44,445 nt of DNA, from NCBI GenBank assembly GCA_030621515.1, contig JAUXHN010000011.1, positions 1-44,445 on the forward strand, given 5' to 3'. Below, piece by piece: positions 24,405 to 40,499 of the stretch. The DNA is from Deltaproteobacteria bacterium. Lineage in GTDB: Bacteria > Myxococcota_A > Polyangia > JAAYKL01. The translations under genes and the position numbers were made by a program. Under the pieces are notes generated by a model that worked only from the letters and a program-made list of their open reading frames with translations, searched no databases and was not told the origin of the DNA. Every line of letters starts with the position of its first letter. The stretch's first letter is position 1.

Positions 24405-27400
24405 ATGAAGATCAAGCGTTTGGATGTGTCCGGTTTCAAATCGTTTTGCGATCAGACACGCATATTGTTCGATAGCTCGCTCACCGCGGTTGTGGGCCCC
24501 AACGGTTGCGGGAAGAGCAACATCGTCGACGCCATCAGGTGGGCTCTGGGAGAGCAGTCCGCGATGAACCTTCGCGGCAAGGGAATGGAAGATGTCATCT
24601 TCAACGGTACGGAAACCCGCGGGCCAAAGTCCATGGCCGAGGTTACCCTCACCTTCGATAACGACGACGGCCTTTCGCACCCCACTTATGTAGAATACCC
24701 GGAGATCACGGTGACGCGACGTCTGCACAGGGACAGCACCAGCGATTACCTGATCAACAAGGCTCCATGTCGCCTGAAGGACATCACCGATCTCTTTCTG
24801 GGCACCGGCGGCGGCACCAAGGCATATTCGATCATCGAGCAGGGCCGAATCGAGCTCATAGTGAGCTCCCGTTCGGAGGATCGACGGGCCATGATCGAGG
24901 AGGCTGCCGGGATCACGCGATTCAAGAAAGCCCGTCAGACGGCGTCGCGCAAGATGGACAAGACCCGCCAGAACCTGCTTCGGATAACCGACGTGGTGGC
25001 CGAGATGGAGAGAAACCTGTCGGTACTCAAGCGACAGGCCAAAAAGGCCGAGCGTTTCACGCGATACGCCACGGAGCAGCGCGACCTCGAGAGCTACATC
25101 GCGAGCCACAAATACCTGGAGCTTTGCGCCGTCAAGAAGTCGGTCGTCGCGAACCTCGCGCAGGCCGAAGCTCACGCGGACGAATCCAGGAGCGATCTCG
25201 AAAACAAGGAGGCTGGAGTTGCGAGCCTCAGGCTCGAGGAAGCGACTGCGAGGAACACTCTGGAGGAGGGCAAGACGCGGGCTTACGCGGTGGACGGCGA
25301 GATTCACATTATTGAATCGGAGATCAAGCATCTCATTGAAACCATGGAGCGCCTGAAGTTGGAGGAACAAGGCAGCGTGGAGCAGGAGGCGACCGCCGAG
25401 TTGAAGAAAGCGTCCCTCGATGAGGAACGAGGGGTTCTGTTCGCGCGAATCGACGCCATCAAGCAGGACGCGGTGACGACCTCCGCCCAGAGGGAGGAGG
25501 CCGAGCGGTTGGCGAGCGAGGCGAGGGAGCAGTTATCCGTGCTCGGCAAGAATTTCGATGCCAGGCGCGATGATATGTCTCGCGCCCGGGCGCGCGTCGC
25601 CGCATCCATGAGCGCGCTCGAAAACCTCGGACCCCGTGTCGATGAGGCGGAGGCCAGGCTCACGACCACATGCTCGCAGCGCGGCGACCTCGAGAAAAGG
25701 ATCGCCGAGTTGTCGATCATGCTGTCGGATCTCAGGGGACGATCCGAACTCATGGAGGGGTCGCTCGAGAGTACGGTGGCCGTGGTAGAGTCCGAGAGCA
25801 CTGCGTTCGAACAGCTCAGATTGAGCCTGGACGAGTGCGATGAGGAAAGACAGACGGTGCGGGACGATCTGCAGTCCAGGGTGTCGCGTCTCGCTTCTCT
25901 CGAAGAGGTGAATACCGGGCTCGAGCGCCACGATCGGTCCGTTCGGGAAGCGGTTGAGGCGTTGCGCGAAGAGGACGGCATGGCGTTCTCCGGTCTCCTG
26001 ATAGATTTTATCGAATGTCCGGCGCAGTACGAGGTGGCCCTCGCCGCAGTCCTTTCGGACAGGCTGCAAGCGCTGGTTACCGATAACCACGAGACGGGCA
26101 TGATGATGCTGGACTGGTTGGCGCAACGGGACCTCGGCAGGGTTACGGCGCTTCCCCTGGCCGGCACTGTCGACAGCGAGTCGGCGTCCGTATTCAGAGA
26201 TGGCTCCGGGGTTGTCGGAAAGCTGACCGATTTCATCCATGTGGATCCGATAGTCGGTGAGATCGCCGACTGCCTGCTTGGCGGTGTGTACATCGTGGAG
26301 AGCATCGACGATGCCAGGCGCATATGGGAATCTGACGGAGGTCACGCGACAGTTGTCACCCGTGATGGGCAGCTGCTCGATGCGAACGGTGTCATGCGCG
26401 GCGGACGGGCCAACTCCCCCGGAGCGGATCTCCTGGGCCAGAAGCGGGAAATCCGGGATCTCGAAAAAGAAGCATCTACCTTGAGGGCCCTTTACGATGA
26501 TCTCGATTCCCGTTTCGGGACCACCAAGGAGGAGCTCCTGAGGCGCAGAGATGCTGCCGAGAATGCCAGGCAGGAGGCGCAACAGCAGGAGGTCGTGCTG
26601 GCGGAGGTTCGAAAGGACACCCTGAGGGCAAAGGAGGATCTGGAGGCGGATCGACAGCGGCTGGACGGGCTCGATCGAGAGATCACTCATCAGAAGACGC
26701 TGGTTCGCGAGGCCGTCGAGGACAGGGATCTGGCGCAAAAAGAGATGACCTCGGCGAGCGAGGAGATCGAGGTGCTCGACAAGATAATCTCCGAGTACAC
26801 GACGACCATCGAGGGGTGCAGGGGCGAGGCAGATCGGCTGGCGGCGGCGGCGATAGACGCTCGAGTTAAGGAGGCGCGGTTCGATCAACAGCACCAGGCT
26901 GCGCTCGATCGGGAGAATCAGATATTGGCGTCGGTCCTGGAGATCAACGAACAGATGGAGCAGCTCGCTGCGAAGAAAGCCTCCGCCGCCAGGGAAATGG
27001 GAAGAGCGGCGGGCAAGGTGGTTCAATTGAAGGAGAGCCTCTATGTCACCCTTGGGGAAGTCGATTGTCTCGACGGTCAGATGAAGGATCTGAACCGAGC
27101 CCTCGATTACTCGTCCCGGGCGCTCCTGGAGGCCGAGGCATCGCTCAAGGATCAACGCAAGGTCGTGGAAGAGACCCGGGCGAATGTTTCCGAGCTTCAC
27201 ATGAGCGAGCAACAGGCGCAGATGGATGTTTCACACCTTCTCGAGAGCGTCGCCGAGCGATTCAATGAGAATCTGCTCCAGATCGTAGGGGACTACCACA
27301 TGCGGCCGGTTCCGGGGCAGGACGTGCGCCTTCGCATCGAGGATCTGAAGCGCCTGATAGAGAGGATGGGGGCCATCAACCCGGCGGCCATCGAGGACTA

Positions 27401-27986
27401 TAAGAATACCGCAGAGCGCTACGAGGACAAGGTGGAGCACAAGGCCGACGTGGAGCAGGCCCTCGAAGATCTCGAGGCAGCCATCGCCCGGATGGACAAG
27501 GACTCACGTCGCCTGTTCAGGGAAACCTTTGCCTCCGTGAACGAAAAATTCCAGCAGATTTTCCCGCGGTTGTTTGAAGGAGGCCAGGCAAGGCTGGTGC
27601 TCACGAATCCCGATGACATGCTGGAAACCGGGGTAGACATCATCGCCCAGCCTCAGGGAAAGAACCTGCTCAGCATCGAGCTGATGAGCGGAGGAGAGAA
27701 GGCGCTCACTGCGGTGAGCCTGTTGTTCGCGCTCTTCCTGCACCGTCCAAGTCCGTTCTGCTTGCTGGACGAGGTGGATGCTCCCCTCGACGAGGCGAAT
27801 GTGGGCAGGTTCGTGGAGCTGGTCCGGGAGTTGACCGATCGCTCCCAGTTCATCGTCATCACGCACTCCAAGGTCACCATGGAGGGAGCCGATGCCCTGT
27901 ACGGCGTGACAATGCAAGAGCCGGGTATTTCCAAAATGGTTTCGGTTCGACTGGTGCACAGTGACGCGATCGCAGTAAACGAATAA
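24405..27986 (+). CDS. smc: Chromosome partition protein Smc
   Basis: A 1193-residue SMC ATPase that organises and segregates the chromosome with ScpA/ScpB. The N-terminal head has Walker A GPNGCGKS (31-38). Long coiled coils surround the hinge at about 520-670, including the conserved NGVMRGG near its end. The C-terminal head has the ABC signature LMSGGEKAL (1093-1101) and Walker B FCLLDEVDAPLDEANV with Asp1122. Length and order are normal for bacteria. GAGGGG is 6 bases before the ATG. No scpA or scpB lies nearby. Confidence 0.97.
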   Translation: MKIKRLDVSGFKSFCDQTRILFDSSLTAVVGPNGCGKSNIVDAIRWALGEQSAMNLRGKGMEDVIFNGTETRGPKSMAEVTLTFDNDDGLSHPTYVEYPEITVTRRLHRDSTSDYLINKAPCRLKDITDLFLGTGGGTKAYSIIEQGRIELIVSSRSEDRRAMIEEAAGITRFKKARQTASRKMDKTRQNLLRITDVVAEMERNLSVLKRQAKKAERFTRYATEQRDLESYIASHKYLELCAVKKSVVANLAQAEAHADESRSDLENKEAGVASLRLEEATARNTLEEGKTRAYAVDGEIHIIESEIKHLIETMERLKLEEQGSVEQEATAELKKASLDEERGVLFARIDAIKQDAVTTSAQREEAERLASEAREQLSVLGKNFDARRDDMSRARARVAASMSALENLGPRVDEAEARLTTTCSQRGDLEKRIAELSIMLSDLRGRSELMEGSLESTVAVVESESTAFEQLRLSLDECDEERQTVRDDLQSRVSRLASLEEVNTGLERHDRSVREAVEALREEDGMAFSGLLIDFIECPAQYEVALAAVLSDRLQALVTDNHETGMMMLDWLAQRDLGRVTALPLAGTVDSESASVFRDGSGVVGKLTDFIHVDPIVGEIADCLLGGVYIVESIDDARRIWESDGGHATVVTRDGQLLDANGVMRGGRANSPGADLLGQKREIRDLEKEASTLRALYDDLDSRFGTTKEELLRRRDAAENARQEAQQQEVVLAEVRKDTLRAKEDLEADRQRLDGLDREITHQKTLVREAVEDRDLAQKEMTSASEEIEVLDKIISEYTTTIEGCRGEADRLAAAAIDARVKEARFDQQHQAALDRENQILASVLEINEQMEQLAAKKASAAREMGRAAGKVVQLKESLYVTLGEVDCLDGQMKDLNRALDYSSRALLEAEASLKDQRKVVEETRANVSELHMSEQQAQMDVSHLLESVAERFNENLLQIVGDYHMRPVPGQDVRLRIEDLKRLIERMGAINPAAIEDYKNTAERYEDKVEHKADVEQALEDLEAAIARMDKDSRRLFRETFASVNEKFQQIFPRLFEGGQARLVLTNPDDMLETGVDIIAQPQGKNLLSIELMSGGEKALTAVSLLFALFLHRPSPFCLLDEVDAPLDEANVGRFVELVRELTDRSQFIVITHSKVTMEGADALYGVTMQEPGISKMVSVRLVHSDAIAVNE

Positions 27987-28105
27987 TACCAGCCATTTTT
28001 TTTGACAACATATCGCGGCTCATACGTCAAATAATGGAGAGAAACAGAGTTGTTGTTTCGATTTCCAGAGAATGTTAGTTTCAGGTCTGGAAAAAGGTGA
28101 CGTAA

Positions 28106-29629
28106 ATGGCTGATAAAACCGGCATTGTACTCGATGGAAAGTACGAACTCATACGCAAGATTGGCGAGGGCGGGATGGGATCCGTCTACGAGGCCAATCA
28201 CAAGCTCATCGGAAGGAAACTGGCGGTCAAGTTCCTTCACCCGCAGTACGCATCCAGCGAAGAAGTCGTCACCAGGTTCCAGCGCGAGGCGCAGGCCGCG
28301 GCCCAGATAGGTCACGAGAACATCATCGAGGTGACGGACATGGGCACCGACGATGACGATTCACCATACCTGGTGATGGAGTTCCTGAAGGGTTGCGATG
28401 TCAAGCAGCTCATCGAGGCAGAGGGCGTTCAGCCCCCCAAACGAGCCGCGCATATCATGGTTCAGGCCCTCAGTGCGCTCCAGGCGGCTCACGATGTGGG
28501 GATCATTCACAGGGATCTCAAGCCGGAAAACATCTACCTCATAGAAAAGGGGGGCAACCCCGATTATGTCAAGCTGCTCGATTTTGGGATTTCAAAGTTC
28601 AGAGCTCTCGAGACCGATGGGGTCAAGGGATTGACGCAGACCGGGACCGTTCTGGGAACGCCCCACTACATGTCTCCCGAGCAGGCGAGGGGAGAACAGG
28701 ATCTGACGCCCAGGTCGGACATCTATGCCATGGGTATAATTCTATACCAGATGCTGACCGGGGAGCTGCCCTTCGACGCCCCCAACTACAACGCCCTGCT
28801 CATCAAGATCCTGACGGAGGAGCCCGATCCGCCCAACCACCTCAACCCGGATATTCCAGAAGATCTAGTACAAACGATTGAAACAGCCATGGCCCGGAAC
28901 CCGCAGGACAGGTTCGAGTCTTGCGACGATTTTCGGGGTCATCTCATCCCGTTCGCTCCGGAGTCGTCCAGCATCGGTCGTATGTCCACGGCTTCCCGCA
29001 CGGTCATCCGGAAGGCGCTGTACAGCAGCAAGACGCCTTTCGAGATGACCCAGAGCGGCATCGAGGGGCAAAAGAGCAAAAAGATCCCCATCATCATCGG
29101 TGGTGCTGTCGCCGCTATCGCCGCACTGGTGGTAGGCGGAATCCTCATCTTTGGTGGAGAGCCAAAGATCGATCCCGTGCCGGCGAATATTCCGGTCGTG
29201 GTTACCGAGCCGATCGTCCAGGATGAAATCGTGAAAGACGATGGAGGAGCCGAGGAGACCGGGGAATCTCCGAGTGCCGTCGCCACTGTTCAGCTCAAGA
29301 TATCGGCTGTCCCACCCGATGCGGTCATCAAGATTGACGGAGCCGGCGTCGGAGCCAATCCGTTCGAGGGACCCTTCGCAAAAAACGATATAATGCGAAG
29401 TGTCGAGGTAACGGCGCTGGGGTACGAGCCCGTGAAGGAACTCGTGAGATTCAACACCGATCTCGTGCTTTCGTACGAACTCGAGAAAATTCCGAACGTG
29501 AAGAATAAAAAGGGCGGCGGAAAATCGAAGCACAAGGCAAAAGAGGTCGGCGCATCTCCCGACAAGCCCACAAAGAGCGGGAAAAAGAAAACCAGAAAGA
29601 TCGATTACGACGATCCGTGGAATCAGTGA
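28106..29629 (+). CDS. Membrane-anchored PknB-type Ser/Thr protein kinase with PEGA-like domain
   Basis: A 507-residue Hanks-type kinase. The kinase domain (about 13-285) has the Gly-loop IGEGGMGSVYEA, Lys42, HRDLKPEN with catalytic Asp137, and DFG (159-161), so it should be active. A juxtamembrane segment leads to one TM helix (about 327-349). The exported part contains a PEGA-like beta-sandwich (about 392-468; KISAVPPDAVIKIDG) and a Lys-rich tail. AAGGTGA precedes the ATG. A perfect TTGACA occurs upstream (28002-28007) but without a convincing -10 at 17 bases. Its position before two giant surface lipoprotein genes suggests, but does not prove, a role in envelope signalling. Confidence 0.93.
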   Translation: MADKTGIVLDGKYELIRKIGEGGMGSVYEANHKLIGRKLAVKFLHPQYASSEEVVTRFQREAQAAAQIGHENIIEVTDMGTDDDDSPYLVMEFLKGCDVKQLIEAEGVQPPKRAAHIMVQALSALQAAHDVGIIHRDLKPENIYLIEKGGNPDYVKLLDFGISKFRALETDGVKGLTQTGTVLGTPHYMSPEQARGEQDLTPRSDIYAMGIILYQMLTGELPFDAPNYNALLIKILTEEPDPPNHLNPDIPEDLVQTIETAMARNPQDRFESCDDFRGHLIPFAPESSSIGRMSTASRTVIRKALYSSKTPFEMTQSGIEGQKSKKIPIIIGGAVAAIAALVVGGILIFGGEPKIDPVPANIPVVVTEPIVQDEIVKDDGGAEETGESPSAVATVQLKISAVPPDAVIKIDGAGVGANPFEGPFAKNDIMRSVEVTALGYEPVKELVRFNTDLVLSYELEKIPNVKNKKGGGKSKHKAKEVGASPDKPTKSGKKKTRKIDYDDPWNQ

Positions 29630-30053
29630 CATTTTTTCCTTCTCATGTGGGCGCCAGGGCCGAATCGGGGCCACAGTGTGTCAAACTTTCATTTCTGAAA
29701 AGTGAACCCTGAGTCTGAAAAACTTTTCCCATTATAAAAAAAATGCATAGTAGTGGTACGCGTCGTGCGTTTTTTCCTGTTTGGCGAAAAAGCCTCGTAC
29801 TCCGAAGTTGATGATTGCTTGTCTATTCAATTTGGTAACTCAATTACGCGTACATAAAGGCCGAATCGTTTTTTCGAGTTCGAGCGTAAACCAATACAAT
29901 GCATTTCAAGTTGAGTTGACTTTTTTTACTTAGATAAGAAAGCGCAATGGTACATGATTTGCTATAATTTGGTTTCTGGCGGGAAGAGATGGAAAGAAAT
30001 CCATCGGGTTGCAAACTAGCTCGATCGCTGTCGGGCACGGAAAAGGTAGAAAC
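29630..30053 (+). promoter_or_regulatory. 424-bp AT-rich intergenic region with extended -10 promoter
   Basis: No coding sequence is convincing here. The best signal is an extended -10, TG-C-TATAAT (29960-29968), with no good -35, about 86 bp upstream of the lipoprotein ATG. Other items are a GTACG/CGTAC pair enclosing an imperfect GCGTTTTTTC/GAAAAAGC hairpin (about 29757-29803), a repeated GGCCGAATCG 10-mer, and several T-tracts. No clear terminator for the kinase gene was found. Confidence 0.5.
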
Positions 30054-33000
30054 ATGATGGTTTCCACGTCGCGAATAACTCGAATCCTTGTTTTTCTGGC
30101 TGCATTTGTCGTAATCGGATGCGATGGCCAGGACGACGAGGCAAGGGACACAAGCATAGAGGCAGGTGCTTCTTCGGCCGCATTACCCTCCGAGGAGACC
30201 CCGACATCCGGACATCCACTGTACAAGGACGGGACGCCTCCGGAAATGCCGGACATGGATGACATCAAGGAAATAAGCGACGAATGCTGCACGCAAGTGG
30301 GGCAGGCCGACGAATGCTGGATGGAGGACGCGACCAATGACGGCATCATCTGCCCGACATGGTTCGAGGCGCCGTCCGGGTATGCGCTGAGCTGTCTTTC
30401 CTCCCATGGTTGTAACGGCACGAGCTCTCCCTCGTATCCCAGCGTGCCCGCCGGGATCCTCTGCGAGTGCGAGGACAACGACGACTGTTACGACGGCAGC
30501 GATCGTTTTGGGATATGCATTGTCCAGCCCGGGGATACTGTCGGACTCTGCGGTCCTTCCTGGTGCAATGGCTTCAAGATCTGCTCCTGCTTCGGGGGCT
30601 GCACCGATGCGACTATTGGAACCACGCCGGCGGCCACATGCACGAACGCAGGGCAGTTTTGTTGCGAGGGTGAATACCCGCAGCACCCGGAGTTGAACAC
30701 CGTAACTGGAATCGTGGGTTTTGGCTATTGCTCCGATGACGTGACGTGCGGGGAGGGCTGCAACAACGACGGAGACTGCGACGACGGCGACGAGTGCACC
30801 CAGGATGTTTGTGTTCTGGCTACGGGTCAGTGCACGTACGGTGACATACTGGCGATGGGCCTTTGCGACGACGGTAACGTCTGCACCGACGAATCCTGCG
30901 ACTCGCTCGTCCCGGGTGGTTGTGTCTGGACGAATAATACGGATCCCTGTTCGGATGGTGACGCGTGCACGGAGAACGACGTATGCGCGGGTGGATCCTG
31001 CCAGCCAGGCCCACCCCTGAACTGCGATGACGGCAACCCCTGCACCGATAACTCCTGCGACTCGATTTTGGGATGCCAGACCGTCAACAACACCGATCTC
31101 TGCGACGACGGCGACGCTTGCACCACCGGGGATATCTGTACGGCCGGCGCATGTGTTCCGACGGGTACGCTCGTCTGCGACGACACCAACCTGTGTACCG
31201 ATGATTCTTGCAACCCGGCTTCGGGATGTGTCTTTACCAATAACTCCCTTGCTTGCGATGACGGGGATGCCTGTACGACAGGCGATACCTGCACCGGAGG
31301 ATCGTGCGTCCCCACCGGCATACTCACCTGCGATGACGGAAATCCGTGCACGGACGACACATGTGACTCGGTGACCGGCTGTTCATTTGTCAACAACACC
31401 AATGCCTGCGATGACGGCAACGCGTGCACCGGCGGTGATGTCTGCGGCGGTGGGATTTGCGCAGGCGCCCCCATAACCTGTGATGATCTAAATGACTGCA
31501 CTGATGATACGTGTCATCCGATCACCGGCTGCCTGTTCACACCCAACTCGGATCCCTGCGACGACGGCGACGCCTGTACGACCGGCGACACGTGCATGGG
31601 CACTGTTTGTACACCTACCGGGACGCTGACCTGTGACGACAGCAACATCTGCACGGACGACTCCTGCAACTCGGCTACGGGCTGCGTGTTCACGAACAAC
31701 TCGGTTGCGTGTGACGACGGCGACGCATGCACCACCGGTGACATCTGCTCCGGCGGCGCCTGTACTTCTACCGGGACGCTGACCTGTGACGACAGCAACA
31801 TCTGCACGGACGATACCTGCGATTCGGTGTTGGGCTGCGTGCATACGAACAACTCGGCTGCGTGTGACGATGGCGATATCTGCACAACCGGCGATATCTG
31901 CTCCGGCGGCTCCTGCATTACCACCGGAATACTTGATTGCGACGACAGTAACATCTGCACCGACGACTCGTGTATTCCCGCCTCGGGTTGTTTCCACAGC
32001 AACAACAGCGATCCGTGTGACGACCTTGATGCGTGCACGACCGGCGATATATGTTCGGGCGGTTCCTGCGTCGGCGCAGCGGTGGATTGCAACGATAGCG
32101 ATGTCTGCACTATCGATACATGTCTGCCTGCCACCGGATGTGTAAACACAGTGATTCCCCTTTGTTGTCTCAACGACGCGATGTGCGTGGGGACGTGCCC
32201 CGGCGGCGCTTCTCCTCCCCCCGTCGGATGCAAAACCGATAGATGCGATATAGTTACCCACTTGTGCTACTGCGAAGTCGAGGCTGCCGGTACTCTCTGC
32301 ACGGATTACGACTCTACCGTGTATCCCCCCAACTGCTTCGAGGGCAGGTGCGGTGAGGTGGTCGATCCGACCGTGTGGCCACCTTCGTACCTGGCGGCGG
32401 ACGGCCAGTGCACTCCGGTGCAGCACCCCGCTTACAACAACCTGTGCAGCGACGTGTTCATTCAGCCGGCCGGGACCGTCCTCGACGTGACTCACGATGC
32501 CTACATGGGTTCCTTCGCCAACACCGGCGCCATCACCACCGGGCCCGACGCGGCCGTCTCGGGAAATCTCTTGAGCATCGGGGGCAGCACAACCTGCGCG
32601 GGCAACAACTACGAATCGGTCGGAGCGGACTGCCTCGAGATGGACGGCGACAACATCGGCATCGACGGCCTCGACTTGGTATATGTTTTTGAGTATCAGA
32701 CCAACTCTCCCACGCAATTCGACCTGCATTCTTATCTGATCAAGTTGGAAGGCGATTTCGATCTGGGCATGTACATAATGACCGATGTGGATATCGCTAC
32801 GGATTGTCCCGAGGGCAACGATCCTGGCAACCCGCTGGTGAGCGTGACCGTGGACTCTTCGCGGTGCAACTACCCGTTCGCCGACGCGCCGCCACCGCCG
32901 GTCGTGGAGGACCAGTGCGACGACAGTGGAAATACCAGCGCGGGCCAGGAGTGCTGCGATCCCTGCGCGAGCCCGGCGTGCTACACCAATGGTTACTACT

Positions 33001-34448
33001 GGTGCGAGCGCGGCTACCCCGACGGTTGCGACATGTGCGGCGGCGGTTGTGTCGGGATCTGGACGTACCCGGAGGATCCCTTCAACTGCATCGCCGAGAC
33101 AGCGTACCCGGTTGCGAACATGGCCAGCACCATCATCTTCCCGGAGGGCGACACGGACGGATCCTGGAGAAGGGTCTTCATTTTCGTGGACGGCGTGACG
33201 GTGGTTCCGGGTAACTTCGAGATCACCATCGAACGGCGCAAGTGGTACGCGAGTCCGTGCGACCGTATAAACGATGACGCTCGTGTGTTCGATCTCACGC
33301 ACCCCGAAGCAGGAGGCGCCACATACCTCGGCTCGCTGGACAATGTGGTCAACTCCTTCCACTCCGGCTTTGGGGCTTGCGGTGGATATAACTGCTCACC
33401 CACCGCATGGACTGGGGCTTTCTTCGGATGCCACGACGGCTCAACCCCGAACCAGTTCTGGCCCAATGCCGAGTATTTCAAGATTCACAGGCAGACCGGT
33501 GAAGGCGCCTCTGCATACTGCATCGTGACGGACGAATCCGTTGCAAGTGGCGCCGACCTTGTGGTGGAGGTGTACAAGCGCTCCAATGCGACGGCTCTGA
33601 CAATTTGTGATGAATCTTACGGGGGCTTCGGATGCGAGCGCGACAATTTCGGGAACAATATCAAGTACACATTGAATGCTGCGGAAGGAGAACTCTACTT
33701 GATAGGCTTCTCTCAATACGCGGGCACCGATCGACCGTGCACCTCGGGAGCGCCCTACTTTGACAATTGCAACTACAAGATTACCGTATACGAGGGAACA
33801 TGCCCGGCTATTTGCCAGCCCGCCCTGGAGGGCGCGGCGGGATCCGCGATCAATATCACCGCGGCCAACTGGTCGACCTACAATATTCAGACCAGGAACG
33901 GTTCACTTTACAACACCGATGGCGACGAATACGTTATTAACGGTTCTGATGACGAAGACGACATGTATGTCATCAACAATACATCCGGAAACACGGTTCA
34001 GATTTTCGTCGAGATGTGCGGCGCGGATGGCGATCCCATGCTCGCGCTCTACAATTGCGATCAGGTCACACCGATGATCGCCGCCGATTCCTTCGGTAGT
34101 CCTGGTGTTTGTGAAACATTCACCTACTCCCTGCCGTCTTCTACCGATCCCTATTATCTCACGGCGCAAACATGGGGCGCCGCTGACATCACTTCCTACA
34201 CGATGACCATCGAGTGGGGCTGGTCTTGCGGCGACGGTTCGTGCGATGGGGCGGAGACTGCGGCCACCTGCCCGGCCGACTGTGGGTCGGCATCGGGGAA
34301 CTGTTGCAGTACGGGTCATGGCGCCGGCTGCTCCATCCCGGCGATTGAGGCCTGTGTTTGTGTCATTGATGTGTTTTGTTGCATTTCGAATTGGGACGGG
34401 TTCTGTGTAAATGAGGTGACCTCCTTCGGTTGTGGTGTCTGTCCCTAG
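30054..34448 (+). CDS. Giant Cys-rich lipoprotein with CTDC-type repeats
   Basis: About 1464 residues from ATG 30054, with AAGGT upstream (an in-frame TTG at 30009 is less likely). It has a lipoprotein signal peptide ending VVIGC (Cys23) followed by Asp, then a short Cys-rich region (about 80-260). Eight ~51-residue repeats follow (271-678), alternating CDDxNxCTDDSCxxxxGC and CDDGDACTTGDxCxGGxC halves, like Dictyostelium CTDC repeats and similar repeats in Myxococcota. The second half is beta-rich with paired cysteines and resembles PPC/adhesin-type domains. The last ~50 residues carry a dense Cys block (GNCCSTGHGAGC to GCGVCP). The product is presumably an outer-surface protein stabilised by many disulfides; binding partner unknown. 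The next gene is 33 bp away. Confidence 0.85.
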   Translation: MMVSTSRITRILVFLAAFVVIGCDGQDDEARDTSIEAGASSAALPSEETPTSGHPLYKDGTPPEMPDMDDIKEISDECCTQVGQADECWMEDATNDGIICPTWFEAPSGYALSCLSSHGCNGTSSPSYPSVPAGILCECEDNDDCYDGSDRFGICIVQPGDTVGLCGPSWCNGFKICSCFGGCTDATIGTTPAATCTNAGQFCCEGEYPQHPELNTVTGIVGFGYCSDDVTCGEGCNNDGDCDDGDECTQDVCVLATGQCTYGDILAMGLCDDGNVCTDESCDSLVPGGCVWTNNTDPCSDGDACTENDVCAGGSCQPGPPLNCDDGNPCTDNSCDSILGCQTVNNTDLCDDGDACTTGDICTAGACVPTGTLVCDDTNLCTDDSCNPASGCVFTNNSLACDDGDACTTGDTCTGGSCVPTGILTCDDGNPCTDDTCDSVTGCSFVNNTNACDDGNACTGGDVCGGGICAGAPITCDDLNDCTDDTCHPITGCLFTPNSDPCDDGDACTTGDTCMGTVCTPTGTLTCDDSNICTDDSCNSATGCVFTNNSVACDDGDACTTGDICSGGACTSTGTLTCDDSNICTDDTCDSVLGCVHTNNSAACDDGDICTTGDICSGGSCITTGILDCDDSNICTDDSCIPASGCFHSNNSDPCDDLDACTTGDICSGGSCVGAAVDCNDSDVCTIDTCLPATGCVNTVIPLCCLNDAMCVGTCPGGASPPPVGCKTDRCDIVTHLCYCEVEAAGTLCTDYDSTVYPPNCFEGRCGEVVDPTVWPPSYLAADGQCTPVQHPAYNNLCSDVFIQPAGTVLDVTHDAYMGSFANTGAITTGPDAAVSGNLLSIGGSTTCAGNNYESVGADCLEMDGDNIGIDGLDLVYVFEYQTNSPTQFDLHSYLIKLEGDFDLGMYIMTDVDIATDCPEGNDPGNPLVSVTVDSSRCNYPFADAPPPPVVEDQCDDSGNTSAGQECCDPCASPACYTNGYYWCERGYPDGCDMCGGGCVGIWTYPEDPFNCIAETAYPVANMASTIIFPEGDTDGSWRRVFIFVDGVTVVPGNFEITIERRKWYASPCDRINDDARVFDLTHPEAGGATYLGSLDNVVNSFHSGFGACGGYNCSPTAWTGAFFGCHDGSTPNQFWPNAEYFKIHRQTGEGASAYCIVTDESVASGADLVVEVYKRSNATALTICDESYGGFGCERDNFGNNIKYTLNAAEGELYLIGFSQYAGTDRPCTSGAPYFDNCNYKITVYEGTCPAICQPALEGAAGSAINITAANWSTYNIQTRNGSLYNTDGDEYVINGSDDEDDMYVINNTSGNTVQIFVEMCGADGDPMLALYNCDQVTPMIAADSFGSPGVCETFTYSLPSSTDPYYLTAQTWGAADITSYTMTIEWGWSCGDGSCDGAETAATCPADCGSASGNCCSTGHGAGCSIPAIEACVCVIDVFCCISNWDGFCVNEVTSFGCGVCP
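30864..32087 (+). repeat. Eight tandem ~153-bp coding repeats
   Basis: The 1224-bp tract encodes eight units averaging 51 residues, flanked by half-units on each side. Units 6 and 7 (from about 31618 and 31771) are the most alike, sharing an identical run of at least 40 bases, which suggests recent duplication or gene conversion. The repeats stay in frame, so this is protein repetition and not a CRISPR array. Confidence 0.85.
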
Positions 34449-34481
34449 GTCGAGCAAAGAAAAATTAACTGGAGACAAAAT

Positions 34482-37400
34482 ATGACAATTTTCCAGAAGA
34501 TCATTTCCGGTATCGTTGGGCAAAAGGTAGCCTGCCTGGCCCTGTCGGTCGTGTTCGGCTTCGTGTTGTCCGGTTGTGACGAGTGCAAGACGTCCGCCGA
34601 CTGCTCCGTCGGTGAGGTCTGCATCTCCGGCGAATGCAAGACCGTGTCTTCGGATCTGGACACGGATACCGATACCGATGCGGATACTGACGCCGACACC
34701 GATTCGGATACCGACACCGATTCGGACACCGACACCGATTCGGATACTGATACCGACACCGATACCGACACCGATACCGGTCAGGGGACAACGATAAACG
34801 GGGATCCGTGCAGCAACGACAACGAGTGCCTGTCGGACCACTGCGGCGACGGGTTCTGCTGCGTGTCCGCGGATGAGTGTTGCGAGGCTGCGGGAGATCC
34901 GGCGCAATGCGACGACTACCTGTGCAACGTTCGGTTCTGCGACGGCAACTACGGCTGCTACTACAACGCCAAGATATGCGGAGTCCAGGACGCTGACATC
35001 GGAGATCCTACCCACTGCACCGGCAACGACAGGTGTAACGGGTTGGGGGGGTGTATCACTGTTACCACCTGCGAGGATCAGGGCTCCACTTACGACCACG
35101 AGACGGGCCAGTACACGTGTACCGCAACGACGGTGACGGAAATCTGCATGACTTCGTGCACCGCGGACGACGACTGTACCACCGGCAATCGGTGCGAGGG
35201 AACGTCATGCGTTCCCAAGATCGCCAACGGCGTCGACGGATGTCTCGACAACTACGACTGCCTCTCCGGGTACTGTTACGTGGGCACCGGGGTTTGCTGC
35301 GATTCCGGCTTGTGCTGTTCGGACAGCAGCCAGTGCAGCCCGTTCGGTTGTGACTCGACGACCGACAGTTGTGCGACCACGTGCCTGAACGGTATCATCG
35401 AGGACGATTCGTTGTGCGACTACTTCAACGATTTCCACTGTACAATTTCAGGGCTCTGTCAGCCGGATATGGTGAACGGATCCTATTACTGCTTCGAAGC
35501 TTCTGATTGTCTGTCGAACAATTGTGATCCCGGCACCGGAATCTGCTGCGCCGGAACGGGTGATTGCTGCCTCAGTGACGCGGATTGTGGTGGATACGCG
35601 TGCAACGTGGCGGGCGGCTATTACTGTGAAGATGTTTGCGATCCCATGGGTTTCGACGACGATTCGTACTGCGAGACCGGGTATTACTGTAGCGGGGGAA
35701 CATGCGTGCCCAAACAGCCGGACGGTGGTCTGTGCTCTGATGACGTGCACTGTGAATCGGGTCATTGCGAGGGCGGCGTATGCTGCATGGTCGGGGAGTG
35801 TTGCCTCATCGCGAATGACTGTGACTTTTCCCAGTGTGTTGCGCGATACTGCGACGGCAACTACGAGTGCGCTTACTACGACCACACTTGTGGGCAGCAG
35901 GATCTGGCTGACGGACTGACCTGCGTGGGAGCGGACCGGTGCGACGGCTATGGAAGCTGCGAGACCGTGACCGGCTGCACCGCAGGGTACGAGGTGTCCG
36001 GCGGGTACGTCTGCTCGGCGGGCAGCGTCTCCGCGAGTTGCTACACTTCCTGCACCAGCGATACGGAATGTACAGAGGCTTATCACTGTGAGAGTCCGAC
36101 ATGTGAGCCTGATCTTCTGAACGGCGAGTCCGTGTGCGACAGCAACGGCGACTGCGACTCGGGCAATTGCAACGGCCTCACGGGCGTCTGTTGCGCGTTG
36201 GGATATTGTTGCGACAATGACCTCCAGTGCCCCATACTGTGCAATATGGTGAGCTATTCCTGCCTGACCACCTGCACTACGGACGCCCAGTGTGTCGCCA
36301 GTTTCGGAGCCAACTATCACTGTGACTCCGGAGTCTGTGAGGAGAATATCCCCAACGGCCAGGGTGTGTGTGACGAGGCGTCGGATTGTGAATCCGGATA
36401 CTGCGACGTTGTCTCCGGGCTGTGTTGCACCGGCGGCACCTGCTGTCCCGACGACAGTGTGTGCGGCGGGTTCTTGTGCAATGCGGGCTTCAGCTGCGAG
36501 ACGGACTGCAGCCCCGCAGCGGTAGAGGACGACACCCTGTGCGCCCCCGACTACCACTGTTCCGGCAGCCTCTGTATTTACGACATTCCCAACGGAGGGA
36601 GCGGCTGCACCGAGGACTCTGATTGCATGTCGGGCAACTGCTCGTTGATAACCGGCGTGTGCTGCAGCCTGGGACCGTCCGGGGAGTGTTGCAATGCCGG
36701 CAGTCAGTGCAACGACGGTAACGCGTGCACGAGCGATTACTGTGGCGGAGATTTCCATTGCAACAACCTGCAGGTGGTTGACTTCACGTCCTGTGACGAC
36801 GGCACCTTCTGCAATGGCCTGGAGTACTGCCTGACCGGTGTGTGCCAATCCGGCGTTGTGCCGTGCTCCGGAATGAGCACGTTCTGCAAGAACGTCGCCT
36901 GTGCGGAAGTTACTCAGTCGTGTGTCTCGACGCCCATCAACACCGGCTCGGCTTGCACCGCTGTGCTGTTCTGCATCGGAAATATCCCGATGGAATGCCA
37001 GGGCGGACTCTGTGTGAATCCAGGGACCGGCACGGATCCGTGCGCCGGAAGCACGGGCAATCCATGTACAGTGTTCTCGTGCAACGAGACCACTGACACC
37101 TGTCCGGAGGTGTCGTTCGCAGAAGGCACGAATTGCGACGATGGTGACAATTGCACTCAGAACACAACTTGTGTGGGCGGATTCTGTGCCGATGGAGACA
37201 ACCCGTGCGACACCAACCCGGATCCCTGCATAGACGGGCTGTGTACGGATACGGGTTCCGGGTACAGTTGCGGCGGCGACACTCCTATTGCGGACTACGG
37301 CCTGTGTGACAACGGAGTATGCGCCGGTGACGACGCGTACTGCCTGGGCGGATTCTGTGTCGAGGGTGAGAACAGACCGTGCAACGACTTGGATGCCTGT

Positions 37401-37817
37401 ACTCTCGAACAGTGCGCGGATGTCGGTGGATCGCCGTCCTGTGACAACAGCGTGGTGACGGTGGCGGTTCTCCTTTCGTGCGGCCTGAATTCGGTGGTCA
37501 AGGGTGACTTCATGTCCCGGGACTATTACGACTACAACGTCGCCTGCAACGTGGCCGCTCCCTATCCCGGCGAGGAGGTGGTGCTCCTTCACAACGGCAG
37601 CACTGCGGGTGTGCATACCGTGACGGTCAGCAATGTCACCCCGGCGGGAACAGTGTATGTCATGCAGATGAACGACGAGTGTGACGAGACCACGTGCGCC
37701 CAGACCGCCTCCATGGTTCTCACCACCACATTACCGGTGGGAAGAACTGCGTTTATCCTGGAGGCGCCCGACGGAGAAGCGCCGGACAGCCTTGACGTGA
37801 CTCTGACCTGTCCGTAG
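34482..37817 (+). CDS. Second giant Cys-rich lipoprotein with Asp-Thr linker
   Basis: An 1111-residue lipoprotein: signal peptide ending FVLSGC (Cys32), a small Cys motif (DECKTSADCSVGEVC), then a ~40-residue Asp/Thr linker. About 850 residues of short Cys modules follow, of the type DCxSGxCxxxTGVCCxxGxCC. At least one large module is duplicated: CDGNYGCYY (about 34930-35075) recurs as CDGNYECAYY (about 35840-35980) with the following RCxGxGSC block. The C-terminal ~110 residues form a Cys-poor beta-sandwich resembling a PPC-type domain. GGAG precedes the ATG. It probably shares a transcript with the preceding lipoprotein gene. A surface or matrix role is inferred; the function is unknown. 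Confidence 0.82.
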   Translation: MTIFQKIISGIVGQKVACLALSVVFGFVLSGCDECKTSADCSVGEVCISGECKTVSSDLDTDTDTDADTDADTDSDTDTDSDTDTDSDTDTDTDTDTDTGQGTTINGDPCSNDNECLSDHCGDGFCCVSADECCEAAGDPAQCDDYLCNVRFCDGNYGCYYNAKICGVQDADIGDPTHCTGNDRCNGLGGCITVTTCEDQGSTYDHETGQYTCTATTVTEICMTSCTADDDCTTGNRCEGTSCVPKIANGVDGCLDNYDCLSGYCYVGTGVCCDSGLCCSDSSQCSPFGCDSTTDSCATTCLNGIIEDDSLCDYFNDFHCTISGLCQPDMVNGSYYCFEASDCLSNNCDPGTGICCAGTGDCCLSDADCGGYACNVAGGYYCEDVCDPMGFDDDSYCETGYYCSGGTCVPKQPDGGLCSDDVHCESGHCEGGVCCMVGECCLIANDCDFSQCVARYCDGNYECAYYDHTCGQQDLADGLTCVGADRCDGYGSCETVTGCTAGYEVSGGYVCSAGSVSASCYTSCTSDTECTEAYHCESPTCEPDLLNGESVCDSNGDCDSGNCNGLTGVCCALGYCCDNDLQCPILCNMVSYSCLTTCTTDAQCVASFGANYHCDSGVCEENIPNGQGVCDEASDCESGYCDVVSGLCCTGGTCCPDDSVCGGFLCNAGFSCETDCSPAAVEDDTLCAPDYHCSGSLCIYDIPNGGSGCTEDSDCMSGNCSLITGVCCSLGPSGECCNAGSQCNDGNACTSDYCGGDFHCNNLQVVDFTSCDDGTFCNGLEYCLTGVCQSGVVPCSGMSTFCKNVACAEVTQSCVSTPINTGSACTAVLFCIGNIPMECQGGLCVNPGTGTDPCAGSTGNPCTVFSCNETTDTCPEVSFAEGTNCDDGDNCTQNTTCVGGFCADGDNPCDTNPDPCIDGLCTDTGSGYSCGGDTPIADYGLCDNGVCAGDDAYCLGGFCVEGENRPCNDLDACTLEQCADVGGSPSCDNSVVTVAVLLSCGLNSVVKGDFMSRDYYDYNVACNVAAPYPGEEVVLLHNGSTAGVHTVTVSNVTPAGTVYVMQMNDECDETTCAQTASMVLTTTLPVGRTAFILEAPDGEAPDSLDVTLTCP
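34659..34779 (+). repeat. Asp-Thr coding microsatellite
   Basis: Imperfect GAYACC-type hexanucleotide repeats encode an acidic (Asp-Thr/Ala/Ser)n linker just after the lipoprotein Cys region. Gain or loss of whole units would stay in frame, so linker length could vary between strains. The alternating Asp could bind divalent cations. Confidence 0.75.
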
Positions 37818-37865
37818 TTCCGACCCGTAGCTCCGAATCCTTAAGAATTCGCAGGTGGCCAAAAT

Positions 37866-37914
37866 GGAGCAAGGTGCAAAATAGCCTTGACTGTTTTGGA
37901 GTACAGTGCAAAAT
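37866..37914 (+). repeat. 17-bp direct repeat upstream of the AAA/DUF4143 ATPase gene
   Basis: GGAGCAAGGTGCAAAAT (37866-37882) recurs as GGAGTACAGTGCAAAAT (37898-37914), 14 of 17 identical, with a 32-bp period (about three helical turns). The second copy ends 6 bp before the ATG at 37921 and includes a TTTTG/CAAAA inverted pair. A TTGACT lies between them at 37887-37892. This may be a regulator site or the edge of a mobile unit. Confidence 0.55.
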
Positions 37915-37920
37915 GGACAC

Positions 37921-39045
37921 ATGAGATACATTTCGAAATATCTCGCGCAGGACCTGAAGAAGAAGATGGTCTTCATGGGTGGTCCGAGGCAGGTGGGCAA
38001 GACGACCACGGCGCTGCGCTTGATGAAAGAGGTCTTTGATAACGGGCGGTATTTCAATTGGGATCTGGACGAAGATCGTCAGGACATACTGCGCAAGAGG
38101 TGGAGCGACGATCATGACCTCCTGGTTTTCGACGAACTGCACAAGATGCGTCGCTGGAAGAGCTGGATAAAGGGTGTGTGGGACGTTTCGGGCAAGGAGC
38201 GCTCTTTCATGGTGACAGGGTCGGCCCGGCTGGACGTATATCGACGCGGAGGCGACTCGCTGATGGGTCGCTACCACTACTGGCGCCTTCATCCCTTCAC
38301 CATCGACGAGCGCCCGCACGGGATTGACAACAAGGATGCGTTTCGCAGGCTCATGACGGTGGGAGGGTTTCCCGAACCGTTCCTCGATCATGACGAGCGG
38401 TCGGCAAGGCGATGGCGGAGAGAGCGCTTCGACCGTGTTCTGCGGGAGGATGTGCGCGACCTGGAGCCCATCAGGGATATCGGGAGCATGAGCCTCTTTC
38501 TGGATCTTCTCAGACGGCGCGTCGGTGGTCTGGTGGCCGTATCCAACCTCGCAGGCGACCTGCAAGTCTCGCCAAAGACTACCGGGCATTGGCTCGAGGT
38601 GCTGGAGAAGATGTACCTGGTTTTCATTGTGCGACCGTATACACGATCCCTTCCCCGTGCCGTGAGGAAGGCTCCAAAGATCTACTTCTTCGACAACGCC
38701 GATGTCATTGGCGACGAGGGAGCGCGATTCGAGAATCTGGTGGCGTCGAGCCTCCTGAAGAGGGTGCATTTCCTGGAGGACCGGGATGGCTATCGGTACG
38801 AACTCAAATATATCAGGGACAAGGAAGGGCGCGAGGTGGACTTCGCCATCCTCAAGGAGGGCGTGCTCGAAGAGTTGATCGAGGTAAAGCTGTCGGACGA
38901 GAAAGTATCTCGGCCCCTGCGCTATTACGCGGAGCGTCTGAAGCCCAGGGTGGCAACCCAGATAGTTGCGCACCTGAAGCGGCCGTTCACCGAGAATCGG
39001 CTGAGGGTCGTAGATCCGTTCTCGTATTTCTCACAAGGCTGGTAG
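37921..39045 (+). CDS. AAA_14/DUF4143-family ATPase with PD-(D/E)XK-like C-terminus
   Basis: A 374-residue cytoplasmic protein of the widespread but poorly understood AAA_14-DUF4143 family. Walker A is GGPRQVGKTT near the N-terminus, Walker B is LLVFDELHK, and VTGSARLD is the sensor segment. The DUF4143 part holds a winged-helix-like region, and near the end REVDFAILK then ELIEVKLSD gives the VD...ExK spacing of PD-(D/E)XK nuclease-like folds. I chose ATG 37921 (MRYISKYL), the family-like start; an ATG five codons upstream is also in frame. It stands alone between secreted-protein and metabolic genes, and such genes often move between genomes. Function unknown. Confidence 0.85.
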   Translation: MRYISKYLAQDLKKKMVFMGGPRQVGKTTTALRLMKEVFDNGRYFNWDLDEDRQDILRKRWSDDHDLLVFDELHKMRRWKSWIKGVWDVSGKERSFMVTGSARLDVYRRGGDSLMGRYHYWRLHPFTIDERPHGIDNKDAFRRLMTVGGFPEPFLDHDERSARRWRRERFDRVLREDVRDLEPIRDIGSMSLFLDLLRRRVGGLVAVSNLAGDLQVSPKTTGHWLEVLEKMYLVFIVRPYTRSLPRAVRKAPKIYFFDNADVIGDEGARFENLVASSLLKRVHFLEDRDGYRYELKYIRDKEGREVDFAILKEGVLEELIEVKLSDEKVSRPLRYYAERLKPRVATQIVAHLKRPFTENRLRVVDPFSYFSQGW

Positions 39046-39101
39046 CCGGTAAATGGTGCGCCCTGGTTGTCTTCGTGTGGTTTCCCTGATACCGGGTTTG
39101 C

Positions 39102-40499
39102 ATGGGCCGAGATAACGCAACAATTGATGATAGAGCCCTGATGCTTGCGGGGCCGCTCTCCCGCCGTATCGGCGATCACAAGGTCATCGACGATCGCGAT
39201 CTGCTGGAGGGACTGGCCGGAGACGAATCCCACTGTGAGCCCAGGATGCCGGATCTGGCGGTGAGGGCGGATTGTACCGACGACGTTCGTGCCCTGCTGG
39301 AGCTGGCAGACAAATTCGACGTTCCCGTTACTCCTCGTGGTGGGGGGACCGGCAAGTCGGGGGGGGCGATTCCTGTTTTGGGGGGCGTCGTTCTGGATAT
39401 GACCGGGCTCAAAAAGATCGTGGAAATAGATCGCCAAAATCTCCTGGCCGTGGTGGAGCCGGGGATCGTTACGGGGGTGTTCCAGGAGGCGGTCGAGGAC
39501 GAGGGGCTCTTTTACCCGCCGGATCCCAACAGCCTGGAGACCTGCACAATGGGTGGAAATGCCGCCCACAACGCCGGCGGACCCCGGGCGTTCAAATACG
39601 GTGTGACCAGGGAGTACATACTGGGCACCAGGACCGTGCTGATGGGCGGGAAGATTCTCAAGACCGGGCGCAGGACCGTCAAGGGAGTGGCGGGCTACGA
39701 CGTGACCGCGCTGCTGGTGGGCTCAGAGGGGACCATGGGCGTTTTCACCGAGCTTACCGTCAAGTTGATGAGAAAACCGCCGAGCCTGGCCACCTTGCTG
39801 GTGCGGCTCCCGGACGAGATCGCCGGGGGCAGGGCGGTGGCGCGGATTGTCGAGGCCGGGCTGGTTCCGAGGGTGCTGGAGTTCATGGACGGCATTATGG
39901 TGGATGTACTCAGGCACACCGGGGCGGGTGGCATCGAGGAGGGCACCGGCGCGCTCCTGCTGGCGGAGTTTGACGGAGCGGATGATGAGCGTGTGGAGGC
40001 GGATGCCGTGAGGTTGGCGGAGCTGTGCGAGAACGAGGGGGCAGTAGAAGTGCTCATGGCCCGTCACGGGGGCGAACGCGAGAAGCTCTGGGCGGCGAGA
40101 CGGATTCTCTCCGATTCGATCAAGGAGCGCTCCGCGTTCAAGGTGTCCGAGGATATCGTGGTTCCCCGTTCCGAGGCGCCCCGTCTGCTGGAGGGATTGA
40201 GAACCATTGCAAAGAAGTACGGTGTGATGGTTCCTTCGTACGGTCACGCGGGGGACGGCAACTATCACACCAATATCCTCTGGGACGATCCCGATTTCGA
40301 TCCGGTCCCGGCCGTTTGCGATCTGTTCGATCTCACACTGGCGCTGGGTGGCACCATCACGGGCGAACACGGGATCGGGATGGCAAAACGGGAGTGGCTT
40401 TCCAAGGAGATAGACGGGGACACCCTGGCGCTCATGAGGGACCTGAAAAAAGTTTTTGATCCACGAGGATTGATGAATCCGGGCAAGATCTTCGTCTGA
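39102..40499 (+). CDS. GlcD-like FAD-linked oxidase (glycolate/D-lactate dehydrogenase type)
   Basis: A 465-residue flavoprotein with an N-terminal FAD_binding_4 (PCMH) domain: TPRGGGTGKSGGAIP, PPDPNSLETCTMGGNAAHNAGG and GSEGTMGVFTEL bind FAD. The C-terminal FAD-oxidase_C domain has the active-site histidines in YGHAGDGNYHTNI and GGTITGEHGIG. Members oxidise 2-hydroxy acids such as glycolate or D-lactate and pass electrons to quinone or partner Fe-S subunits. No glcE/glcF partner is adjacent, so D-lactate or another hydroxy acid is as likely as glycolate. The ATG at 39102 lacks a strong Shine-Dalgarno; ATG 39141 is an alternative. Confidence 0.9.
   Translation: MGRDNATIDDRALMLAGPLSRRIGDHKVIDDRDLLEGLAGDESHCEPRMPDLAVRADCTDDVRALLELADKFDVPVTPRGGGTGKSGGAIPVLGGVVLDMTGLKKIVEIDRQNLLAVVEPGIVTGVFQEAVEDEGLFYPPDPNSLETCTMGGNAAHNAGGPRAFKYGVTREYILGTRTVLMGGKILKTGRRTVKGVAGYDVTALLVGSEGTMGVFTELTVKLMRKPPSLATLLVRLPDEIAGGRAVARIVEAGLVPRVLEFMDGIMVDVLRHTGAGGIEEGTGALLLAEFDGADDERVEADAVRLAELCENEGAVEVLMARHGGEREKLWAARRILSDSIKERSAFKVSEDIVVPRSEAPRLLEGLRTIAKKYGVMVPSYGHAGDGNYHTNILWDDPDFDPVPAVCDLFDLTLALGGTITGEHGIGMAKREWLSKEIDGDTLALMRDLKKVFDPRGLMNPGKIFV

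Follow-up and report, generated by a model that had tools for sequence, protein, structure and literature searches.

TraA, which contains a PA14 domain, and TraB, an OmpA-type protein, are the closest described counterparts of the gene pair analyzed here, and a further point of comparison is offered by the Dictyostelium proteins with Dicty_CTDC repeats, which have a matrix role. An excerpt of one account describes TraA as combining a variable domain with Cys-rich repeats and as having TraB for its operonic partner (PMC13184517). The present pair lies in a 44,445-nucleotide stretch of DNA (the window) from a Deltaproteobacteria bacterium (assembly GCA_030621515.1, 4.64 Mb in 346 contigs; contig JAUXHN010000011.1, positions 1 to 44,445), and consists of the genes for two giant Cys-rich lipoproteins, P1 (30054..34448) and P2 (34482..37817), both on the + strand. 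In the paper collection that was searched, no account of the pair, its repeats or Asp-Thr repeats turned up. As detailed below, P1 and P2 represent, in the window's little-known myxobacterial family, a conserved two-gene unit that probably encodes a partnered, sugar- or polymer-binding surface pair with exchangeable tips.

With TraA/TraB, the pair shares the layout of a two-gene operon, a Cys-rich stalk and a proposed surface role, and PA14 domains occur in the P1s of two relatives (G010 and G005). However, P1 and P2 have N-terminal lipid anchors instead of MYXO-CTERM (neither protein matches TIGR03901), P2 is a second Cys-rich lipoprotein and not of the OmpA type (no OmpA-type domain was matched in P2 by Pfam), and some P1s bear heads made of carbohydrate-binding modules (CBMs). 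The rod repeats of P1 match those of the Dictyostelium proteins (PF00526) well above cut-off, but P1 is bacterial, lipid-anchored and paired with P2. A third likeness, to PPC domains (PF04151) and the collagen-binding domains of collagenases, lies in the predicted fold of the window heads and in weak PF04151 matches of relatives' P2s; here the window proteins differ in having no PF04151 match and no protease domain found by Pfam, and in carrying their heads on disulfide rods with lipid anchors. The acidic Asp-Thr stalk of P2 also weakly matches the SD stalk of the MSCRAMM proteins SdrC and SdrD, an acidic spacer as well, whereas P2 is a lipoprotein with its stalk near the N-terminal anchor. 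A relation to SdrC/SdrD was rejected, as the scores of 19.8 and 18.7 bits (cut-offs 1700 and 2500) reflect low-complexity likeness only.

Architecture of P1 and P2

The preliminary description of this locus had reported two consecutive lipoproteins of about 1465 and 1111 residues, rich in Cys modules and 33 bp apart, and this holds: P1, which starts with ATG, has 1464 amino acids (aa) and 149 Cys (10.2%), P2 has 1111 aa and 154 Cys (13.9%), and the consecutive genes are spaced by 33 bp. Both are predicted lipoproteins by a lipobox rule applied by eye and by script; the signal peptide of P1 (30054..30122) has the lipobox FVVIG before the lipid Cys C23, that of P2 (34482..34577) FVLSG before C32. 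Once the lipid Cys is discounted, as well as a Cys within the signal peptide of P2, the mature proteins contain 148 and 152 Cys, both even numbers.

Behind its lipid anchor, P1 comprises an N-terminal module (P1N, aa 76-228, 30279..30737; DECC..ECW..CGPS.CNGF..CSCFGGC in alignment A5), a rod of Dicty_CTDC Cys repeats (about aa 236-701, 30759..32156; Pfam and sequence, bounds by eye), a conserved core delimited by profile searches and without a Pfam match (aa 738-1260, 32265..33833), a further domain, and a C-terminal module of the form CC..CVC..CC..WD..C (34218..34445). Six stretches of the rod match PF00526 significantly (E 2.2e-23, 82.1 bits; curated cut-off 27). Two putative head domains were assigned from a low-confidence model and fold comparison: a beta-sandwich of collagen-binding/PPC-like fold at aa 1075-1249 (33276..33800) and a PPC-like fold at aa 1257-1389 (33822..34220). 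The C-terminal module recurs in other proteins of the class: it is also present in G000 (C75 and C260) and in G027, with at least 18 matches in the latter from 18 scored of 36 candidates.

P2 starts with the lipid anchor, a Cys module and an Asp-Thr stalk (aa 58-100, 34653..34781); its rod (about aa 106-735, 34797..36686; alignment A4 and model) is a tandem array of small disulfide modules, and its C-terminal region (aa 737-1111, 36690..37814; profile and alignment searches) is conserved. The last part of this region, aa 993-1111 (37458..37814), is predicted by model and fold comparison to be a PPC/collagen-binding-like beta-sandwich head. The P2 model has a mean predicted local distance difference test (pLDDT) score of 61.8, with 70-85 in the rod across model residues 381-630. 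About 110 places in the source genome match the Asp-Thr stalk.

Conservation and Joint Divergence of the Pair

P1 homologues with record names come from Myxococcota metagenome-assembled genomes titled "Myxococcota bacterium" or "Deltaproteobacteria bacterium". A contig scan of genomes with the P1 sequence alone gave no match, and one with alignment A2 gave five named P1 loci. Of 317 class genomes, 9 have a match to the P1 core profile, with 8 of the 9 falling among the 14 genomes of the window's family; a phylum-wide sample of 377 genomes has 2 with a match, both again from this family. The P1N profile matches 15 of the 317 class genomes, including all 14 of the family, the fifteenth being a borderline case outside it (E 5.8e-5). 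Since the class searches scored only 4 or 12 candidates per genome, absences elsewhere in the class are soft.

The fetched P1N loci were scanned with profiles of P1 and P2 and tallied by hand, so that the survey is anchored on P1-type genes. The family holds 31 of these, four of which are cut by a contig end where P2 would be expected. In 20 of the 27 assessable cases, a gene of the P2 type lies directly downstream on the same strand, and in one more (G009) it follows after a gap. Six P1/P2 pairs are present in G005, and two, arranged in tandem, in G007. Three genomes outside the family (G042, G026 and G050) likewise have a P2-type gene after a large Cys-rich one. At least one candidate ATG for P2 lies between -4 and +81 bp from the P1 stop in 17 of 19 pairs; the automatic choice of this ATG failed for G003b and G004.

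The two partners have also diverged together. Over 19 pairs, Mantel tests correlate the distances of P1N with those of the P2 PPC region (r 0.53, p 0.0001) and of the P2 C-terminal region (r 0.58, p 0.0001), which measures joint inheritance of P1 and P2, not contact. The P1N and P2 trees share the subgroups G005f/G012b/G004, G001/G002, G013/G005a and G010/G005d. Partner Cys counts correlate as well (rho 0.77, p 0.0099; 10 pairs, including one with an incomplete P1), although weakly as evidence because the rows are related, and the correlation of partner lengths is not significant (rho 0.60, p 0.067; 10 pairs). Thus, the pair is kept among relatives more than chance would have it, judging by gene order and correlated distances.

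By script and by eye, a lipobox is present in all 20 paired P2s, compared to 17 of the 20 paired P1s, which suggests that P2 is the constant anchor. The P1s of G003a, G001 and G002 have an apparent plain signal peptide without a lipobox beside a lipobox-bearing P2 (L078 611-5299, L110 7735-11529, L111 2035-5751). The residue following the lipid Cys (+2) varies among relatives' lipoproteins.

Putative Ligand-Binding Heads

The predicted P2 head resembles 5iku (Z 9.3, root mean square deviation (rmsd) 2.6, 95 residues aligned) and 5sv5 (Z 9.1). In the low-confidence P1 model, aa 1257-1389 match 5sv5 (Z 10.6, rmsd 2.2, 100 residues aligned, 21% identity), and aa 1075-1249 taken together with 1257-1389 align over 204 residues with 5iku, which has its collagen-binding domains in tandem (Z 10.4; rmsd 16.7 for the two jointly). 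By these models, the likeness of the window heads to PPC/collagen-binding folds is suggestive. Pfam finds no PPC domain (PF04151) in the window heads, and PF04151 is weakly matched in relatives' P2s (G009, E 0.00017, 22.8 bits; G005, E 0.0085, 17.4 bits; cut-off 25.9) and in one of the eight members of alignment A8 (E 0.038). Sequence searches of solved structures returned staphostatin and ankyrin rows (E 0.021-0.72), which were judged to be chance matches and discarded; another search of this kind gave no match.

Firmer evidence comes from the sequences of relatives, where some P1s carry named ligand-binding domains. All 20 paired P1s were scanned with Pfam, one only in part. Two P1s of G013, one paired and one unpaired, share the core of the window protein; behind this core, both match CBM60 (E 8.2e-27 and 5.7e-28) and, more weakly, CBM6/35. 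A paired P1 of G010 matches CBM6 (E 8.6e-14), CBM35 (E 3.4e-13) and PA14 (E 5.3e-08), and a paired P1 of G005 CBM35 (E 1.5e-08) and PA14 (E 9.2e-06). The laminin-G domain of one G007 P1 is located in the rod part, ahead of the core, and is therefore not counted as a head. The number of recognized CTDC repeats also varies widely among relatives. Constant modules combined with differing CBM60, CBM6, CBM35 and PA14 domains suggest a constant base, with heads that differ at least between some loci. Outside the family, the P1-like proteins of G042 and G026 (L112 7425-11462; L113 7636-11661) match Disintegrin with 36.8 and 28.2 bits (cut-off 35.1).

The Chromosomal Slot

Upstream of P1 lies a Ser/Thr kinase gene (28106..29629, + strand; PF00069, E 1.4e-51) with a hydrophobic segment seen by eye. 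The preliminary description had named a membrane kinase gene as preceding the pair, and its presence is borne out. The 424-bp gap to P1, with a terminator-like site at 29756-29770 (a consensus match only), does not imply one operon with the kinase. Overall, consensus scans found 2 promoters where 3.9 were expected, and 11 terminators where 6.2 were expected. The kinase adjoins P1 in five genomes (G000, G001, G002, G004 and G011, the P1 of the last being cut by a contig end), four of which also have SMC beside it. At the remaining pair loci that were fetched, some of them truncated by contig ends, no kinase was found, except for a more distant one on the opposite strand near one G005 pair. The kinase therefore seems to belong to one chromosomal slot and not to the pair.

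This slot, SMC-kinase-[pair]-GlcD, has been kept around the pair (window 24405-40499 compared with L110, L111 and L151): the pair also comes after SMC and the kinase in G001, G002 and G004, and GlcD follows it in G001 and G004, whereas the G002 slot is cut by a contig end. Between the window and G001, SMC is 98% identical (197 aa), the kinase 90% and GlcD 91%, compared to 41% over 394 aa for P1 and 36% over 534 for P2; for G002, the values are 97% (SMC), 88% (kinase), 40% (P1) and 37% (P2). G001 and G002, which belong to the same genus as the window, are 97% (SMC), 89% (kinase), 68% (P1) and 75% (P2) identical to each other; the P1 and P2 identities with the window cover part of the length. 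With flanks at 88-98% and P1/P2 at 36-41% identity, the pair has either diverged far faster than its neighbors or been replaced. That the window pair moved in from another lineage is unproven.

Between P2 and GlcD, the window has an AAA_14/DUF4143 ATPase gene (37906-39045), where G001 and G004 have a gene for Lgt. Lgt, the prolipoprotein diacylglyceryl transferase, is the enzyme that lipidates such lipoproteins. Its gene follows P2 immediately in G001 (L110 4506-5915) and G004 (L151 2631-3617), lies about 0.9 kb further on in G012 (L150 2096-2926), and is cut by the contig end in G002 (left end of L111). The family genomes have 2-6 Lgt matches each (five in G000), some of those in G009 and G013 being fragments. 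Lgt behind P2 at four loci, along with the recurrent order of P1 before P2 and their joint divergence, supports the earlier suggestion that the two lipoproteins might be one surface machine.

Asp-Thr Stalks and MYXO-CTERM in the Family

The stalk of P2 is one of many. A pattern of five Asp-Thr repeats, (Asp-Thr)5, occurs in 13 of the 14 genomes in the family, each with between 8 and 2023 matches (overlaps counted), and in 8 of the 45 remaining genomes of the class, none with more than 31; a reversed control gave 0-6 matches, save for 29 in one non-family genome. At 19 stalk loci, picked from the source genome by likeness to the P2 stalk, a lipobox lies 7-32 residues ahead of the Asp-Thr run in 23 of 24 open reading frames, two that are cut upstream having been dropped; under a stricter lipobox rule, the figure is 13 of 27. 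As far as sequence patterns can tell, very many lipoproteins of the window's family form a group distinguished by an Asp-Thr stalk soon after the lipid Cys, a feature nearly absent from the other families of the class. An acidic signal close to the lipid Cys is also described, in an excerpt on the Bacteroidetes, as the lipoprotein export signal of that group (PMC5080379).

MYXO-CTERM is universal in the phylum, typically with dozens of proteins per genome, according to an excerpt of one account (PMC11980579). Matches are scarce in the family, at 0-7 per genome (14 genomes), compared to 1-82 in other genomes of the class (25 genomes); the ranges overlap because five of the latter have 8 or fewer, and a divergent MYXO-CTERM motif could escape the model. 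Loss of the myxosortase from the family was considered and is not supported, as an MrtX-like protein was matched in 58 of 59 genomes, none above the curated cut-off and G001 weakly; 4 of 14 control genomes also match.

A Candidate Surface Receptor and Its Alternatives

The reading we prefer, with a little better than an even chance of being right, is that P1 and P2 form a two-lipoprotein surface adhesin or receptor with interchangeable ligand-binding heads. The pair, its conservation, the lipoboxes, the differing heads and the divergence in place can be read from the sequences; a single P1-P2 transcript, surface exposure, contact between the partners, the class of ligand and the biological role are what we infer. 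P1 and P2 would then be partner outer-membrane lipoproteins from one transcription unit, with their N termini held by lipid anchors, while disulfide-stapled repeats would form stiff rods that hold out the beta-sandwich domains toward the C termini as ligand-binding heads. P1 would keep a constant N-terminal module beside its anchor and vary its heads between loci, with PPC/collagen-binding-like domains, CBM60 with CBM6/35, or CBM6/35 with PA14. P2 would be the constant partner and may keep P1 at the surface where the latter has no lipobox. Prey, kin or particles would offer the glycans or other polymers to which the pair binds.

A number of observations weigh against this reading. Six of the 27 P1-type genes are without P2, although three of these are short and consist of the module only. 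Among the six paralogous pairs of G005 alone, P1 and P2 distances are not significantly correlated (66/720 and 85/720 permutations), and G007a groups with G001/G002 by P1N, but with the window, G003 and G006 by P2, which may be an error or an exchange of partners. The approximately unbiased (AU) tests do not reject a clade of window, G001 and G002 (p 0.053 and 0.061), so that replacement versus fast divergence is not decided. The P1 model, with a mean pLDDT of 43.7, is poor, and unrelated sandwiches (calpain, PliG) score only about 1 Z under the best P1 fold rows, which is why the fold likeness is taken as suggestive only. The Pfam scan found no CBM in either window protein, and a profile comparison did not match the heads of P1 and P2 to each other. 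A CBM or PA14 occurs in just 3 of the 20 paired P1s, with the internal laminin-G in a fourth; the remaining 16, including that of the window, have no Pfam-named head or lectin domain. Finally, residue +2 is Asp in both window proteins, which would mean retention in the inner membrane in E. coli.

This last point is the starting ground for a periplasm-facing or inner-membrane scaffold of the envelope. According to excerpts of one study (PMC3222651), Asp at +2 is indeed the E. coli retention signal, but most inner-membrane lipoproteins looked at in M. xanthus (8 of 12) have Lys, not Asp, at this position. Moreover, residue +2 differs among relatives, and CBM60, CBM6 and PA14 domains would be expected outside the cell; we consider such a scaffold very unlikely. 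The cross-linked layer or fiber proposed in the preliminary description, with disulfides between molecules, would suit the very high Cys content, the repeats and the vicinity of two lipoproteins. Nothing found supports it, however: even Cys counts are what internal pairing would give (with a chance of one in four that both are even), the number of CTDC repeats is far from constant among relatives, and the ligand-binding modules on some relatives' P1s point to binding instead, which makes a layer or fiber quite unlikely.

Recognition of kin or partners in the manner of TraA/TraB, with variable heads that would engage an identical or complementary head on a neighboring cell, fits the two-gene unit, the Cys-rich stalk, the PA14 domains in two P1s and the divergence in place between conserved flanks. 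CBM heads, though, suit non-self glycans equally, and neither the MYXO-CTERM of TraA nor the OmpA domain of TraB has a match in the window pair; we rate this possibility as rather unlikely. That two unrelated Cys-rich lipoproteins became neighbors by chance could be entertained in a genome so rich in stalked lipoproteins, but is barely credible given that their order is kept at most loci and in several genera, that pairs are duplicated in tandem in G005 and G007, and that the divergence of P1 and P2 is correlated.

A broader proposal, which joins the surface receptor to the family-wide pattern, is speculative and unlikely: the family may have largely swapped MYXO-CTERM display for N-terminally lipidated proteins on acidic Asp-Thr stalks, helped by extra Lgt, with P1/P2 as its flagship. 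The pair would be a diversifying two-component recognition receptor whose base, bound to P2, stays constant while its sugar-binding heads can be swapped, and it would be exchanged as a unit at a fixed slot, for prey capture or kin recognition. Independently of this proposal, as a paired surface receptor on Cys-rich stalks P1/P2 would be the second of its type in myxobacteria, beside TraA/TraB. The sugar targets of its heads can be tested singly, and the question of how myxobacteria with few MYXO-CTERM proteins display proteins on their surface becomes testable.

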